Source: Marinilabiliales bacterium
Lineage (GTDB): Bacteria > Bacteroidota > Bacteroidia > Bacteroidales > F082
NCBI GenBank assembly: GCA_002869365.1
Contig: PKTA01000105.1
Coordinates: 1-37,347 of the forward strand
DNA length: 37,347 nucleotides
Reading direction: 5' to 3'
This document shows, in pieces, positions 6,804-28,882 of the stretch. Within the stretch, counting starts at the first letter, position 1. Every line of letters starts with the position of its first letter. Under the pieces are notes generated by a model, which ran no database searches, was not told the DNA's origin, and saw nothing but the letters and a program-made list of their open reading frames with translations. The position numbers were made by a program, and so were the translations under genes.

Positions 6804-7178
6804 GTATTACGGAACTGTCTATCGCCTGGCCTTAGGCTAGGAGGAAAGTCGGGACAACACAGGGCGCCATACTTCTTAGATGGAAGGGCTCCGATTACTC
6901 GGGGTACAGAAAGTGTCGCAGAAAATAACAGCCTACTCCGTCAGTAGACGGACGGCAATGGTGAAAACGTGAGGTAAGAGCTCACGATTATTCCTGGTAA
7001 CAGGAGTGATGGATAAACCTTATGGGTTGCAAGATCAAATAAACCGGTGCTTGAGGGTTGCCCGCCCAATACCGGAGGGTAGATTGCTCGATCCCGTGGG
7101 TGACTGCGGGGCTAGATAAATGATAGAATAGTACTTTTTTAGTATGAATACAGAATCCCGCTTATGGTTTCGTAATAC
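6804..7178 (+). ncRNA. rnpB: RNase P RNA (bacterial type A)
   Basis: Catalytic RNA of RNase P, which removes the 5' leader of tRNA precursors. The ends are set by the P1 helix: GTATTACG at 6804-6811 pairs perfectly with CGTAATAC at 7171-7178, followed by a run of T that completes a terminator. Conserved core blocks are visible in order: GAGGAAAGTCGGGACA (from 6840), the ACAGAAAGTGTCGCAGAAA region, GGTGAAAACGTGAGGTAAGAGCTCAC with its P12-type stem, GGTAACAGG, GATAAACC, the tRNA 3'-CCA binding segment GGAGGGTAGATTGC near 7074, and the terminal AGATAAATGATAGAATA ... ACAGAATCCCGCTTATGG. The length (about 375 nt) and the GGTAGNNTGCT loop are of type A. It stands alone between two protein genes. 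Confidence 0.97.
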
Positions 7179-7187
7179 TTTTTTTTA
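7171..7187 (+). terminator. Terminator of rnpB
   Basis: The 3' strand of P1 (CGTAATAC) is followed at once by eight to nine T residues (7179-7186), so the closing helix of the RNA itself acts as the terminator stem. Confidence 0.6.
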
Positions 7188-22660: not shown

Positions 22661-23731
22661 TTAATCCATAAATGTCATATTGCCTGGGATGATTCCTGCA
22701 TCAAATTTGCTAATTAGTTTTCCTGCAGGTGAATATCTATGAACTTCTCCATTACGATTATAATCATTTGCATCGCTAACATAAATTTCGTTCTCGGGAC
22801 TAATTGCTAAGCAGTAAAAGTTAATATTCTCCAATTGCATAATAATAGGAGTTTCAGGAATGCTTAGGGCGTCGACCGACATTTTATAAACATCAGTATT
22901 TAAGAAGTATAAGCTGTCAGCTTTTGGATTTATCTTCAAGTTGGTAGGAGTATTGGTGATGTCGGGAAATTCTATTTTAGATAGTAGTTGGTGAGTGTTA
23001 GGATTAATTTTACACAAGGAAGGATGCTCATCGTTCATAAAACCACCGCTGCATAATACCCATAAATTATTATTCTTATCAATAACAATGCTATTTGGTT
23101 CTTTGCCTACTTCGATGGAGTCGATAACTTGCATGCTTTGCGAATTAACTACCATTATCATATTGTTTTCCTTATCCTGATTGAAAGCCGACCAGTTTGT
23201 AATAAAAACTTCATTGCCAAACTTTAGCATATTTTCGGAGGTCCTGCCAAGAGGTATTTTCTGTACTATCTCCATATTTGTAGTATTCAAAACAGTGATA
23301 TTATTTTCGTAAAGGTCGGAAACAAATGCAAGGCTGTCGTTTACTTTTAATAGAAAACGGGGCGAAGTTAACTGATTAGCTTTCCCCTGAAATGATGCAT
23401 CTTGTTTGTCGACTTTAAATATTGTGTGTGAGTTATTTACAGTTAGGTAGATGCTGTTTTCGTCAATAAAAATACTGTTTGCCACATCCCCCAAAGGAGC
23501 ATTATTATTCCTATAAAATACGTTTTGAATTACTTCTTCAGTTTCACGATTATAATATGTTAATGATGAGTTTCCTGTAGTAAAATTACCTTCATTAACC
23601 ACAAATAAGGCATTTTGAAAATCTCCTTCAATAGGAGATGGGTTGTCTTTATTACAGGATGAAGATATTAGTAATAGTATTACAGATGAAATTAGTGATA
23701 TGTAATTAATGATTTTATAATTTGAGAACAT
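22661..23731 (-). CDS. BtuG-like beta-propeller surface lipoprotein (DUF5074/YncE-like)
   Basis: The 356-residue protein starts with a lipoprotein signal ending ISSSC (Cys26) and then folds as a beta-propeller: repeats such as NALFVVNEGNFTTGNSSLTYYNRET, DVANSIFIDENSIYLTVNNSHTIFKVD, PNSIVIDKNNNLWVLCSGG and FYCLAISPENEIYVSD mark blades. In Bacteroides thetaiotaomicron the propeller lipoprotein BtuG caps the BtuB receptor and binds cobalamin very tightly; this gene has the same family type and lies 10 bases after the TonB receptor gene in a cobalamin-riboswitch operon. I therefore infer a BtuG-like capture role. It is the last gene of the operon. Ligand-binding residues cannot be checked by eye. 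Confidence 0.8.
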   Translation of the reverse strand: MFSNYKIINYISLISSVILLLISSSCNKDNPSPIEGDFQNALFVVNEGNFTTGNSSLTYYNRETEEVIQNVFYRNNNAPLGDVANSIFIDENSIYLTVNNSHTIFKVDKQDASFQGKANQLTSPRFLLKVNDSLAFVSDLYENNITVLNTTNMEIVQKIPLGRTSENMLKFGNEVFITNWSAFNQDKENNMIMVVNSQSMQVIDSIEVGKEPNSIVIDKNNNLWVLCSGGFMNDEHPSLCKINPNTHQLLSKIEFPDITNTPTNLKINPKADSLYFLNTDVYKMSVDALSIPETPIIMQLENINFYCLAISPENEIYVSDANDYNRNGEVHRYSPAGKLISKFDAGIIPGNMTFMD

Positions 23732-23741
23732 ATTTTAATTT

Positions 23742-25700
23742 TTAAATCCTGAATGATAAACAAGCTTCAAAATTTATTCCGGGCATTGGTCGCCATAAAA
23801 TTGTTTGATAACTTGTGTTGAAAATATTGTTGAGTTTAAAGTTTAGTTCTAATTCATAGGATTTTATATTAAACTTTTTGCCGAGTGAAATATTACTTAT
23901 GGAAAATGCTGGTAAAGTGTTGGAATACAGAGTAGATTCGTCGAGTGAAGTGTTCCTTTTTCCCGTGAACTGTGTATTCCAGTGTAAAGTATATCTCTTA
24001 TAATTTATATGTAAGTATACATTTCCCGAATTTATTGGAACATATATAAGTTGCCTGCCTGCATATCCACCTTCCAAGGCTTTTTCGCTTTCGTTGGTTG
24101 ATTTGGTAAATGCATGTTGAATAGCCAGTTTGTAAAACAAACCATAAAGATTTCCGTATAAACTTAAACTGCTCTCTATTCCCCTTGCATGAACAAATTC
24201 AATATTTCTTGCCGACCAATATCGGTAGTCGCTGGGAACCCATTGTATCCAGTTGGATATGTTAGAACTAAAGAAATTTATGTCGAAATCAATATTTAAA
24301 CTTTCTGAATAAGTTTTGGAATAGTTAAATCCGAAATCCATTTGTACTCCTTTTTCCGGTAGTAATTCAGAGTTGCCTCCGGGGAACCAATAAAGGTCGT
24401 TTAAACTGGGTAAATTATAATTCATATTTGCGGAGATTCTGAAAAATAAATCACTATCTGCAAATGGTTTAAATAACAATCCAAGATAAGGTGTAGTAGG
24501 AGTAAACTTATCTTCTGAATATTGCTGACGAAGTATAAAGTCGGCCATCACGATATTAGAGAAATCTTTACTGATTTTGATCAAAAAATCATATTTATCT
24601 CTTGATTTTGTGGATTGGTAATTATTGGAATTTATAACATATTTTGAAAAACTTAATTCCGAATTTATTTTCCAACCTCTGTTAAAACTATGGCTAACGC
24701 CTGCTTTTGCAAATCCTGAATTACTTACATTAGTTGAATTTATATATGTAACAGTATCCTCATGGTCAATTGCCGTTGTGGTTTTTAGCAGATAATTTAT
24801 GTTGCTGTAAAACCAAGCGCCATCGATATGAAAGATTGTTTTCGACTTATGATATTTGTAAGACAATATACTTCTGGAATTAAAATTATTTTGTTTTTCT
24901 TCATTATTACCACTCTGTTGGTTGCTCATAATTTGTGGAATTTCTCTAAAATCCCATTCGCTCCAATTTTTTAAACTCAACGATTGGTGGTCTGATATTT
25001 TATAATCAAATTCCTGTACAAATCCTCTGTTGAAATATGATGCATTCTGTTTAGTTTGCCATTCCGCAGGGATAATAGCATTATTATAATATCGAAATGA
25101 GTTTTCGGAAGAATTTAAGTAAACAGAAGTTGATGATTTAAGTTTTTTCAATCTTAAATTTATGGCTAGAGTACTAGTATAAGTTTTATAACTTCCAATA
25201 CTCTGGCTTAGTTCTATCTTGTTTTTATGCTCTTTTTTTCCTGATGTTAAGTTTATGGCCCCTCCCAATGCACCCGAAATATTTTCCATTGAACTACCTC
25301 CAAAATCGAGGCTGACTTCATCGAAAAAACTATTTGGGATAAGTGATAAATCCACTTGACCCAACATTGGTGAGTTTAACTCAAATCCATTCCAAAGTAC
25401 TTTTGTATGAGAGGCAGCAGTGCCTCTGAACGATGCAGTTGCCAAACTTCCCTTACCATATGATTTAATAAAAACCGGACTTTCTGCACTTAGCAGTTCT
25501 CCCAAATTTAAATTATTCAGGTTTTTCTTCGTCAGAGTATCTATAAGTTGGCTTCTGATACTTGAATTACGGTCAATATAATTTGATTTTATTACCATTT
25601 CATCCAGATATAAGGTGTCATAAATCATTTGTGCCTGTACAGAATTTATCTGCACAAGCAAGCAAAAAGCAACTATTATATAGAATGAAACCTTCTTCAT
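23742..25700 (-). CDS. btuB: TonB-dependent receptor, BtuB-like
   Basis: Outer membrane transporter of 652 residues. A signal peptide (MKKVSFYIIVAFCLLVQINSVQAQ) precedes a TonB-box-like start (DTLYLDEMVIKSNYIDR), a plug domain with IKSYGKGSLATASFRGTAASHTKVLWNGFELNSPMLGQVDLSLIP and SGALGGAINLTSG, and a 22-strand-type barrel rich in aromatic residues, ending in the outer membrane signature FEACLSFRI. It lacks the carboxypeptidase-D-like N-terminal domain of SusC proteins, has no SusD partner and is of BtuB/FecA-like size. Placement downstream of the cobalamin riboswitch, with 6- and 10-base gaps to its neighbours, makes cobalamin or a cobinamide-type corrinoid the likely substrate. The B12 assignment rests on the riboswitch. 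Confidence 0.88.
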   Translation of the reverse strand: MKKVSFYIIVAFCLLVQINSVQAQMIYDTLYLDEMVIKSNYIDRNSSIRSQLIDTLTKKNLNNLNLGELLSAESPVFIKSYGKGSLATASFRGTAASHTKVLWNGFELNSPMLGQVDLSLIPNSFFDEVSLDFGGSSMENISGALGGAINLTSGKKEHKNKIELSQSIGSYKTYTSTLAINLRLKKLKSSTSVYLNSSENSFRYYNNAIIPAEWQTKQNASYFNRGFVQEFDYKISDHQSLSLKNWSEWDFREIPQIMSNQQSGNNEEKQNNFNSRSILSYKYHKSKTIFHIDGAWFYSNINYLLKTTTAIDHEDTVTYINSTNVSNSGFAKAGVSHSFNRGWKINSELSFSKYVINSNNYQSTKSRDKYDFLIKISKDFSNIVMADFILRQQYSEDKFTPTTPYLGLLFKPFADSDLFFRISANMNYNLPSLNDLYWFPGGNSELLPEKGVQMDFGFNYSKTYSESLNIDFDINFFSSNISNWIQWVPSDYRYWSARNIEFVHARGIESSLSLYGNLYGLFYKLAIQHAFTKSTNESEKALEGGYAGRQLIYVPINSGNVYLHINYKRYTLHWNTQFTGKRNTSLDESTLYSNTLPAFSISNISLGKKFNIKSYELELNFKLNNIFNTSYQTILWRPMPGINFEACLSFRI

Positions 25701-25706
25701 AAGTAA

Positions 25707-26711
25707 TTAATTATGAATTAGTTTAAATATTTTGGTCGTATTATTTTCTATTATTTTTAAAATTATTATCCCTGGGGGGAGATGGTTAGCGTTGATGGTA
25801 AATGTTCTTTCCTTTGAAATTGTGGAAAGTATCAGATGAGAGTTTATATCCATAAAAACTATTTTGGATCCAACAGTAATATTTTCAATATGAATAATAT
25901 CTGAAAATGGATTTGGATAAACTTTAACAACACTTATTGGTAAATCTTCAACTCCCAGATGTGCTAAGTCGTGAATAACCCCTACTGCATCAAGATCGAA
26001 ACCCGAAGGCTCGAAGGGAGTAGGCCAGGGGTCGTTAACTTTGTTTCCATGTGAGTCGTAAGTTGCGTATTCATCATCTATGCTTCCAACAACATCAATA
26101 ATTTTTATGTATCGTATGTTTTGTAAATCCAGATTATCAGTATTTTCAACCTCACTTATATCGAAAGGTGTACCAAAGAAGATTCTGTATTTCCCGGCAA
26201 GGTTATTTATTAAACTGGCATCGAGAGTTCCAAAAGTGTTTATCTGATTTGAAAACTGAGTATTTGAAGTATTACTAATCCTTTGGTAATTAATCCCGTC
26301 TGTGCTTATTTCCACAAAAGCCAATTCCAAAAAATCATCCTGAAATCCATTTTCAAAAACTGCAAAATCAAAACCATCACCGTCAACAATAGGGGAGTCG
26401 AAATAAATTACTGCACTTCCTCCGTCGCCAAGACTTACCACATCATTATCGGCTTTGCCAAAGGCAGATTCTTCACTTCCAAATGAAGCATTTCCCAACA
26501 AAGGATTGCTAATGTCCATAAACCCTCTGCTAATTTCACAATTGTTGGCCCACGCCACAAAAATATTACTGTCGGCATGAATTGCAGTGCTTCCCGCCTG
26601 ACCTGCAGGTGGAGCAAACTGAGCCCTGAGTGAAATATTGGAAAACAGCAATAATATGGCAAATCCCCCTATGAGGAATTGCCATATTATTTTATATGAA
26701 GTATATTTCAT
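25707..26711 (-). CDS. T9SS type A surface protein of the B12 operon
   Basis: Secreted protein of 334 residues. A signal peptide (about residues 1-30, ending SLRAQ) leads to a mature start FAPPAGQAGSTAIHADSNIFVAWANNCEISRG, followed by a jelly-roll-like beta domain with DNDVVSLGDGGSAVIYFDSPIVDGDG, FAVFENGF and LAFVEISTDGINYQRI. The C-terminus (VVKVYPNPFSDIIHIENI ... IIILKIIENNTTKIFKLIHN, about 262-334) is a type A sorting domain, so it should reach the surface through T9SS. Proteins with this domain are often named only cell surface protein; I recall them beside TonB receptors in Bacteroidota. It lies 2 bases after the propeller gene and 6 bases before the receptor. A corrinoid-binding or receptor-capping role is inferred only from the operon. 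Confidence 0.82.
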   Translation of the reverse strand: MKYTSYKIIWQFLIGGFAILLLFSNISLRAQFAPPAGQAGSTAIHADSNIFVAWANNCEISRGFMDISNPLLGNASFGSEESAFGKADNDVVSLGDGGSAVIYFDSPIVDGDGFDFAVFENGFQDDFLELAFVEISTDGINYQRISNTSNTQFSNQINTFGTLDASLINNLAGKYRIFFGTPFDISEVENTDNLDLQNIRYIKIIDVVGSIDDEYATYDSHGNKVNDPWPTPFEPSGFDLDAVGVIHDLAHLGVEDLPISVVKVYPNPFSDIIHIENITVGSKIVFMDINSHLILSTISKERTFTINANHLPPGIIILKIIENNTTKIFKLIHN

Positions 26712-26713
26712 AA

Positions 26714-27976
26714 TTAATTTTTAATAAATCTTGATGAAAACTTTTGGTATTTGCTATGTGCAATAACGAAATAAATGCCTGCATTTAAGTTGCTTATATC
26801 TATTTTATTAATGTTATTTGTAGATATTACTACCTTACCAAGATTATCAATTATATCAATGTTCTCAATTTCTATTGACTTATTTGAACGCAGTTTTATA
26901 TAATTTTGGGCTGGATTAGGATAAACCGAAATATCAAAATCATTTATATTATTAGTAATTGCTGTTATTGTTCTGTAATCAACAGCAATTGCCTGGGCAG
27001 AAATTCCAACATCAATAGTTGATGTTTGATTTCCCTCCAAGTTGTATATGTATCCGTTACCATAGGAAAAGAAATCGCTGGTAGTAATGTAAAAATTATT
27101 ATTGATGGTATCGATGACTGATGCGGCAATGCCTTCCGTTAGCGGAGAAACTATCATGGTTTCTGTATTGTCAGTAAGGTCATATTCAGCAATACCGTTA
27201 TTAAGTTCAATATACATTAGATTATTACGCTGACCGGCAGAATTTGCAAGGCTTGCATCATTTATGGTATATTGTTCCATAATATCTCCACCATAATCGA
27301 ATGTTCCAATATTAGTAGTTGTTTCACCCCAGGCTGTTGTCATGAAACTACTTATAACATCATTATAAAAACCGAAGAAATTTATCCCTGAATAAAAATC
27401 ACCATAATCGTCTTCGGAGAGTAAAAATGCCTGATCAATTTCAATTGCTGCTATTTTACCTGTAGTACTTCCATACGGCCCCGGAATTGCCACAAGTGCC
27501 ACTCCGTCATTGATTAGAAAACCAGCAGCATCGCCAGAAATACCTTCTATATTGGTAACTAAACTAAGGTCATCGAGGGAGAAAATCTTTACAAAATTCT
27601 CAGTTATAGGATACCAGAAAGATGCCAATAGAACATTACCATCTGTAGCTAGTTGGTTTATCCCCGGACTTGCAACTGAAGCAAGTTTTTCATAGGTGTC
27701 GATATTAAATTTAACTATCGAATCCTGTGCCGCTACATAGGCAAAACTGCCGTTGATAATTACATCTTGCACCGACTGGGTATAAATGGTGCCGAAATCT
27801 GTAATAGTTTCTGTTTCAGGGTTGTATGAGGAAACAGTAACGAAGTCGTTGGGATCACTGTAAATCCCGCCGCTCACAATTATAACTTGTTTTGTGTAAG
27901 TTGATTGCGCTTTCACGCCAACTGCAAGTATTGTCACAAAAACCAATACCAGACTTAAAAAGTAATTCTTTTTCAT
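26714..27976 (-). CDS. T9SS type A beta-propeller protein (DUF5074-like), first gene of the B12 operon
   Basis: Secreted protein, 420 residues from ATG 27976. I choose this start because it opens with MKKNYFLSLVLVFVTILAVGVKAQ, a clean signal peptide; the frame also runs back to 28021, but that would overlap the terminator-like hairpin of the riboswitch. The mature part shows propeller blades (YVAAQDSIVKFNIDTYEKLASV, NNGIAEYDLTDNTETM, NNFYITTSDFFSYGNGYIYNLEGN) like its lipoprotein cousin at 22661-23731, and a type A sorting domain at the end (ISVYPNPAQNYIKLRS ... AGIYFVIAHSKYQKFSSRFIKN). Two propellers in one B12 operon, one lipidated and one T9SS-exported, suggest paralogues with divided work. 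The start codon follows directly on eight T residues of the hairpin. Confidence 0.85.
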   Translation of the reverse strand: MKKNYFLSLVLVFVTILAVGVKAQSTYTKQVIIVSGGIYSDPNDFVTVSSYNPETETITDFGTIYTQSVQDVIINGSFAYVAAQDSIVKFNIDTYEKLASVASPGINQLATDGNVLLASFWYPITENFVKIFSLDDLSLVTNIEGISGDAAGFLINDGVALVAIPGPYGSTTGKIAAIEIDQAFLLSEDDYGDFYSGINFFGFYNDVISSFMTTAWGETTTNIGTFDYGGDIMEQYTINDASLANSAGQRNNLMYIELNNGIAEYDLTDNTETMIVSPLTEGIAASVIDTINNNFYITTSDFFSYGNGYIYNLEGNQTSTIDVGISAQAIAVDYRTITAITNNINDFDISVYPNPAQNYIKLRSNKSIEIENIDIIDNLGKVVISTNNINKIDISNLNAGIYFVIAHSKYQKFSSRFIKN

Positions 27977-28028
27977 AAAAAAAAGTTTTAAGGTATTATT
28001 AAATAATTTAATTAGCCTCAAAACTTTT
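27977..28028 (-). terminator. Terminator-like expression platform of the cobalamin riboswitch
   Basis: On the minus strand AAAAGTTTTGAGG (28028-28016) pairs with CCTTAAAACTTTT (27993-27981), 12 of 13 positions plus a G-T wobble, around a loop that itself can form ATTAAAT/ATTTAAT. Eight T residues follow (27984-27977) and the next base is the A of the start codon at 27976. This is the shape of an intrinsic terminator placed between aptamer and gene. Confidence 0.7.
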
Positions 28029-28098
28029 CAGGAAGAAAATTGTGGAATGCTTTTAAACATCACCAAGCCATTATCCCGAAAGCTTTGATAAAAATATG

Positions 28099-28272
28099 TA
28101 TTGGCAGGTCTTCTGACTTGCTCAACTTTCGAGGCCTTCCCAATTCCATAAAGGAAAAAGTGACCGAGGTTTCGAAAGCATTGCTGAGCTTACAGCAGCG
28201 GGAACTGTACAGGATTTGCACCTGTTTCCCTGTTAGGCCGCCCACATGGTCATGTGAGTTATGGCACCATTA
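28099..28272 (-). promoter_or_regulatory. Cobalamin (B12) riboswitch aptamer
   Basis: Reading on the minus strand, the conserved pieces come in the right order: GGTGCC at the 5' end, the GGGAAACAGGTGCAAATCCTGTAC region, the core CAGTTCCCGCTGCTGTAA, and the B12 box GTCAGAAGACCTGCC at 28117-28103. The outer P1 helix can be formed by TAATGG (28272-28267) and CCAATA (28104-28099). It precedes four genes with surface uptake roles, so high cobalamin should shut the operon. A -7 element lies a few bases upstream (28281-28288). Confidence 0.96.
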
Positions 28273-28280
28273 CAAGTGTG

Positions 28281-28288
28281 CAAATGTA
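28281..28288 (-). promoter_or_regulatory. Promoter -7 element of the B12 uptake operon
   Basis: Minus strand TACATTTG, a perfect TA-N2-TTTG. It places the transcription start near 28275, just before the P1 helix of the riboswitch. Confidence 0.6.
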
Positions 28289-28375
28289 TGATTATTTTGA
28301 ATATTAAAGAAATAAATTTGTGCTAATGAAAGACATTTGAATAATGAACACCGATCCGTCAGGAGCCGGACAAGT

Positions 28376-28477
28376 TTCAGAAGTGCGTTTAGGAACCTGA
28401 ATAATAATATCTCAAATGAATACTATTCTGAAACCTACTTCATCATTCGGCGTTCGTTAATCGATATTCGGTGTTCA
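28376..28477 (+). repeat. Intergenic direct repeat, copy 1
   Basis: From TTCAGAAGTGCGTTTAGGAA to CGATATTCGGTGTTCA. It matches 28548-28650 almost throughout, including an exact run of over 40 bases across ACCTGAATAATAATATCTCA. The end GGTGTTCA is inverted relative to TGAACACCGA at 28345, so a unit bounded by inverted ends is possible. Confidence 0.85.
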
Positions 28478-28547
28478 ATAGAATTACTTTACGATTTACA
28501 AAGCGTTTTCAGAATATCAGTCAACTGACTGATTAACGATTTTAGAA

Positions 28548-28650
28548 TTCAGAAGTGTGTTTGGGAACCTGAATAATAATATCTCAAATGAATACTATTC
28601 TGAAACCCCACTTCATCATTCGGCCTTCCTTGTTCGATATTCGGTGTTCA
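28548..28650 (+). repeat. Intergenic direct repeat, copy 2
   Basis: Second copy of the unit at 28376-28477, 103 bases, with a handful of substitutions and one extra base in the AAACCCCACTTC segment. It is followed by AGACATTTGAATA, a word that also precedes copy 1, which points to a larger duplicated unit. Confidence 0.85.
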
Positions 28651-28882
28651 AGAAAAAGACATTTGAATATCAAATATCGATGTGTCAGTCTCCTGGTTGG
28701 CAGTCCGTGTTCAAAAAAATAAATTATTTTTATGATAAGGTCATTAACTTTTCACTTTTAGTTTTTAATTTTTAGTTTTTCGTTTATTCCCTGCAACGAT
28801 TAAAAAATTTCAGTTGTCAGTATGATGTGTTTAAAATTTTAATAAATTAGCGCCCCAATCAAAATCAATAAAAGTGATTAAA

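Follow-up and report, generated by a model that had tools for sequence, protein, structure and literature searches.

The genome of a Marinilabiliales bacterium contains an operon that very probably scavenges vitamin B12 (cobalamin) and that joins the outer-membrane transporter BtuBG with two predicted corrinoid-capture proteins tagged for the type IX secretion system (T9SS). The operon is located in a window of 37,347 nucleotides (the whole stretch of DNA analyzed; assembly GCA_002869365.1, contig PKTA01000105.1). It consists of four genes on the minus strand, behind a cobalamin riboswitch and with intergenic gaps of only 2, 6 and 10 bases. The genes and their domains are listed below (aa, amino acids; pLDDT, predicted local distance difference test; Z, structural similarity score; E, expectation value).

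26714..27976, minus strand: gene 1, 420-aa BtuG-like beta-propeller with a signal peptide and a T9SS type A tail (AlphaFold2 pLDDT 92.7; Z 31.5)
26723..26926, minus strand: T9SS type A sorting domain of gene 1 (PF18962, E about 2.5e-12)
25707..26711, minus strand: gene 2, 334-aa BtuH-like (jelly-roll) protein with a signal peptide and a T9SS tail (assigned from model, profile and PF18962)
25962..26621, minus strand: predicted BtuH-like core of gene 2, residues 31-250 (AlphaFold2 pLDDT 87.6; Z 12.8 to 7BIZ residues 318-593)
25716..25922, minus strand: T9SS type A sorting domain of gene 2 (PF18962, E 6.8e-08)
23742..25700, minus strand: gene 3, BtuB-type TonB-dependent receptor, 652 aa (8bmx_C BtuB, E 4.9e-72; partial score to TIGR01779)
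22661..23731, minus strand: gene 4, BtuG surface lipoprotein, 356 aa, lipobox Cys26 (8bmx_D/3dsm, E about 1e-60; PF16819)

Predicted capture proteins and their transport partners

Based on its predicted fold and on profile comparison, the 334-aa protein is BtuH-like, minus the lipoprotein feature, and we predict that it binds B12. Apart from the T9SS tail it matches no Pfam or NCBIfam domain, and its family is without a model in either database. The signal peptide is probably cut before Gln31. The AlphaFold2 model, built from 29 sequences, finds its best structural match in the C-terminal B12-binding domain of BtuH2 (7biz_B, residues 318-593; Z 12.8, root-mean-square deviation 2.9 over 156 residues). 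The H-domain of BtuG1 (8BLW) matches at Z 11.4, and the next folds are CBM32, at Z 9.7. A profile of the 334-aa family and its distant relatives, compared once with a BtuH profile, gave E 3.4e-6 over 50 columns; the DUF4465 control gave E 0.34. Direct searches of the PDB, by phmmer or family profile, returned no true match for the 334-aa or the 420-aa family, so the BtuH link required structure prediction and the broader profile.

In BtuH2, B12 sits in the C-terminal domain, and its contacts include Asn399 and Phe401 (PMC8941943). Asn121 and Phe123 of the 334-aa protein align with these residues, which contact the phosphate and the lower ligand. Asn121 is invariant across the 334-aa family and Phe123 nearly so, and both fall within a conserved segment shared with BtuH2 (SLG.GG...F...DF.V..N.F...E). 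We do not claim the PPAGQ motif as a counterpart of BtuH2 Gln333, since the structural alignment begins after that residue.

The 334-aa protein resembles BtuH2 (7BIZ) and the BtuG1 H-domain in riboswitch control and in its BtuB/BtuG neighbours as well as in fold. BtuH2, a lipoprotein, has PKD domains at its N terminus, whereas the 334-aa protein is a free-standing domain of weak sequence similarity to it, without a lipobox and with a T9SS tail in its stead. BtuJ and its DUF4465 relatives (9FCT, 9I2L, 9HMU) are also jelly-roll B12 binders from the same kind of operon. We rejected a DUF4465/BtuJ assignment on the absence of a Pfam match, the hhalign value given above for the control, and the absence of DUF4465 from the host genome.

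The 420-aa protein has a predicted propeller core whose eleven top structural matches are all BtuG entries (Z 31.5-29.4; the best other propeller reaches 28.4). Comparison with a profile of the neighbouring BtuG lipoproteins aligns almost the whole core (probability 98.2, E 3.4e-14). It is only about 12% identical to the BtuG structures (BtuG1-3; 8BMZ, 8BAI, 3DSM), and its signal peptide contains no Cys and so no lipobox, which is replaced by the T9SS tail. Because it lacks the lipobox but has BtuG fold and homology, we call it BtuG-like, not BtuG. We predict that it binds corrinoids. The structure comparison with BtuG and BtuH, suggested in an earlier note on this DNA, thus places one T9SS protein with each.

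Genes 3 and 4 encode the BtuB-type transporter and a BtuG lipoprotein, in line with the earlier note, which took the TonB receptor for BtuB and the propeller lipoprotein for BtuG-like. The top PDB matches of gene 3 are the BtuB proteins of Bacteroides thetaiotaomicron (8bmx_C), with Escherichia coli BtuB ranking behind. We assign gene 4 to BtuG on its homology, its lipobox (Cys26 is invariant in 28 relatives) and its adjacency to the BtuB gene, 10 bases away. The pair is arranged as in the BtuBG transporter of gut Bacteroides, side by side and controlled by a B12 riboswitch. The accessory capture proteins described there are all lipoproteins; here two are predicted T9SS cargo.

T9SS delivery of the products of genes 1 and 2 is supported by their tails and by the machinery of the host. 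Both PF18962 domains score over the cut-off, and TIGR04183 also matched, which bears out the statement of the earlier note that two of the three accessory proteins carry type A T9SS domains, not a lipobox. Signal peptides of T9SS candidates were judged by eye. Among homologues, 78 of 80 for the 334-aa protein and all 26 for the 420-aa protein have a type A tail. The host genome encodes SprA (split across two contigs) and PorV. Each of the 25 sampled genomes that encode a member of the 334-aa family, or a distant relative of it, also has SprA. SprA is missing from two Bacteroidales genomes (G329 and G337), where the genes for BtuH or BtuG-H and for DUF4465 are of the lipoprotein type. A Flavobacteriaceae-like genome (G344) has SprA alongside lipoprotein-type BtuH and DUF4465, so the split between T9SS and lipoprotein forms is not absolute. 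These tails and this machinery speak for the version of B12 capture that the earlier note had put forward, in which capture proteins are delivered by T9SS.

Recurrence of the arrangement across Bacteroidota

We analyzed 100 genomes of the host's family, 247 genomes from across the Bacteroidota, and 80 named loci from Bacteroidales, Flavobacteriales, Chitinophagales, Saprospiraceae and Sphingobacteriaceae. The 334-aa core is found in one copy each in 77 of the 100 family genomes, and in 26 of the 247 phylum-sample genomes (the host's own included). The GTDB contig set contains it in 505 stretches or more. Riboswitches were counted with the covariance model; a simple B12-box pattern search found fewer. 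A cobalamin riboswitch lies 448-1837 bases upstream, on the same strand, of 72 of the 77 family copies, and four of the five copies without one are at contig ends, on broken contigs or in genomes with a split operon. A riboswitch also precedes 16 of the 25 homologues from the phylum sample, some of them of very low similarity.

The named loci give the same picture. Sixty-three of the 80 have a cobalamin riboswitch, always upstream and on the same strand. Only seven loci with 5 kb or more of upstream DNA miss it; where the flank is long enough, 90% of loci have it. In 62 of the 80, a BtuB-type receptor, BtuG or both are nearby. Homologues of the T9SS proteins thus occur mostly with a riboswitch and with a BtuB-type receptor and/or BtuG; the earlier note had said that the opposite pattern would speak against its proposal. 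The association counts (72/77 family copies, 63/80 loci) argue that the arrangement is not due to chance. Gene order differs among the 80 loci, which argues that the riboswitch association is not one inherited block. In three loci (L127, L139 and L151), the BtuH-like T9SS gene is first behind the cobalamin riboswitch, and BtuB and BtuG were not found nearby.

The gene beside the 334-aa gene varies. Across the 80 loci it encodes a T9SS propeller in 26, a T9SS-tailed DUF4465 protein in 20 and T9SS-tailed DUF4430 repeats in 11. In the family genomes, the 420-aa gene, where present, sits between the riboswitch and the 334-aa gene. Two proteins contain a BtuH-like domain fused to DUF4465 (L104:4312-6093, at a contig end, and L166:415-2130, T9SS-tailed). 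B12 binding was shown for eight DUF4465 members from distant sources (PMC13398666), and the same publication reports it for F2I9N3, a DUF4465 protein of Fluviicola. DUF4430 occurs at the C terminus of transcobalamins (PMC4350170). We draw the transcobalamin link of the DUF4430 repeats from this report and the Pfam match; a search of a DUF4430-repeat protein against the PDB gave no transcobalamin match. The DUF4465 and DUF4430 neighbours, together with the fusions, are independent evidence that this slot serves corrinoid binding.

Further variants were seen among the loci. Proteins with a T9SS tail and two to three DUF4430 repeats occupy the same slot in Bacteroidales that include rumen and horse-faeces genomes (L089:6752-7936, L118:6751-7947, L128:6310-7944). 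T9SS-tailed DUF4465 proteins are encoded at L176:9119-10066, L178:9611-10600 and L180:8701-9942, and the L176 and L178 copies adjoin a BtuB-type receptor. In Winogradskyella and Aequorivita, an untailed BtuG has another BtuG homologue beside it, and this other one matches the T9SS tail profile (L136:6658-7944, L157:6634-7944).

Control region of the operon

The leader upstream of gene 1 contains the following elements.

28281..28288, minus strand: Bacteroidota -7 promoter element TACATTTG (TAnnTTTG), identified by sequence at the 5' edge of the aptamer
28086..28286, minus strand: cobalamin riboswitch aptamer (RF00174, 92.5 bits)
28074..28087, minus strand: CAAAGCTTTCGGGA, predicted L13 (CGGGA) and 5' strand of a predicted antiterminator (from conservation in relatives)
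28019..28033, minus strand: predicted 3' strand of the antiterminator, overlapping the terminator 5' arm (from leader comparison)
27977..28028, minus strand: intrinsic terminator, 13-bp stem and T run, abutting the ATG (fold -14.2 kcal/mol)

The aptamer, at 28286-28086, scores well over the RF00174 gathering score of 31.5 (E 6.8e-22) and is the only RF00174 riboswitch in the 3.6-Mb host assembly. Of 76 related riboswitches, 67 have a TAnnTTTG box at the aptamer's 5' edge, versus 6 of 76 once shuffled. The promoter, riboswitch and four closely spaced genes of the earlier note are all recovered here, with the gaps that it gave. Just upstream of the promoter, window positions 28329-28688 contain intergenic direct repeats (60 nt, 97% identical, spacing 172) and weak inverted repeats.

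After the aptamer, CAAAGCTTTCGGGA is invariant or nearly so across 23 relatives. Its L13 motif CGGGA is complementary to TTCCCG in L5, which is found in 17 of 18 relatives, so a kissing interaction is possible. The terminator stem is formed by AAAAGTTTTGAGG and CCTTAAAACTTTT, followed by a T run that reaches the ATG, and the leader is uniform among relatives. Over 23 relatives, 93.3% of cells in the stem are paired and five pairs are changed on both sides; only one of 500 shuffles was as good. The terminator 5' arm may alternatively pair with CAAAGCTTTCGGGA as an antiterminator, a pairing kept in 90.5% of cells. The mechanical open reading frame of gene 1 begins at TTG 28021. As this codon is within the terminator hairpin, translation probably begins at ATG 27976 (420 aa), as the earlier note also implied.

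Proposed function and alternatives

We propose that, when B12 is scarce, the leader RNA would form the antiterminator and the four genes would be transcribed. With B12 bound to the aptamer, the L5-L13 kiss would take the antiterminator strand, the terminator would form before the first start codon and expression would be off. A termination model was also proposed for B12 riboswitch control of B. thetaiotaomicron operons (PMC12751083). BtuB and BtuG would form an outer-membrane transporter with a lipoprotein lid. Sec would take the two T9SS proteins across the inner membrane, and the SprA translocon would export them through the outer membrane; they would then be anchored on surface polysaccharide or released. 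There they may capture corrinoids and pass them to BtuBG. By analogy, they may work like the BtuH/BtuJ layer of gut Bacteroides.

Several observations weigh against this interpretation. About 30 of the 100 family genomes contain the 334-aa gene, but no 420-aa propeller could be recognised in them. In the phylum sample, 9 of 25 homologues, mostly distant ones, have no riboswitch nearby, and of 45 loci with long flanks, 10 showed neither BtuB nor BtuG in the vicinity. Foldseek relates the 334-aa core to BtuH at only E 1.4e-3, and the two are securely similar in sequence across only some 50 residues. In BtuH2, the residues that contact the corrin amides (His476, Tyr510, Trp511 and Trp577) lie in a part of the domain that does not align by sequence with the 334-aa protein. 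The antiterminator pairing has no covariation, although its strands are nearly invariant, which makes covariation uninformative.

There is a real but minor possibility that the BtuH-like protein binds B12 and the T9SS propeller does not, with the propeller instead binding surface glycans or docking, in a structural role, on BtuB, BtuG or the BtuH-like protein. Propellers are common scaffolds, and unrelated ones reach Z 25-28 against the 420-aa core. The 420-aa protein is also less widespread, with 46 substantial copies in the 100 family genomes versus 77 of the 334-aa protein. In B. thetaiotaomicron, BtuK2 does not bind B12 though its close relative BtuK1 does (PMC12751083). Against this, the propeller is nearest to BtuG by both structure and profile, and its slot is elsewhere taken by DUF4465, the tested members of which bind B12.

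We regard it as unlikely that the T9SS proteins, instead of forming a surface layer that feeds BtuBG, are released as freely diffusing B12-binding decoys. Such decoys would keep B12 from competitors or, in the manner of protein siderophores, trap it away from the cell. Both release and anchoring are possible for T9SS type A cargo. Vesicle-borne BtuJ of B. thetaiotaomicron is a remote B12 trap (PMC12751083). The close linkage to BtuB and BtuG suggests hand-over instead; the present data do not separate anchoring from release. A carbohydrate-binding or adhesion module of CBM32 type, carried in the operon as a passenger, is a very improbable reading of the 334-aa protein: CBM32 and discoidin folds come next in its structure list (Z 9.7 and lower) and adhesive functions are frequent among T9SS cargo, but CBM32 ranks under BtuH, the core is nearer to the BtuH B12 domain by both structure and sequence with ligand residues kept, its gene is often first or alone behind the riboswitch, and the domain is found fused to DUF4465.

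Beyond B12 scavenging by this operon, we lean towards a broader view in which Bacteroidota with T9SS build an outer layer of corrinoid-capture proteins that is modular and repressed by B12. The T9SS tag and the cobalamin riboswitch would be constant and the binding fold swapped (BtuG-like propeller, BtuH-like domain, DUF4465, transcobalamin-like DUF4430 or fusions). Some of these proteins may be released in the manner of siderophores, and the layer would be a non-gut counterpart of the lipoprotein and vesicle systems. The arrangement of T9SS-tagged predicted catchers recurs across many non-gut Bacteroidota and is apparently undescribed so far. A literature search, mostly outside subscription journals, did not find BtuH and type IX secretion together, and T9SS is unmentioned in the published accounts checked on BtuG complexes, BtuJ and DUF4465.

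B12 scarcity shapes dependence among microbes in marine, sediment, rumen and freshwater communities, and surface B12 capture by Bacteroidota has so far been worked out for gut lipoproteins only. If our prediction is correct, nutrient capture joins the roles of T9SS cargo, better known for enzymes and adhesins, and a deeply conserved family without a Pfam or NCBIfam model acquires a function. B12 capture becomes testable in Winogradskyella, Aequorivita and Fluviicola, which have T9SS.

Elsewhere in the window, positions 6806-7180 contain a bacterial RNase P class A RNA gene (231 bits).

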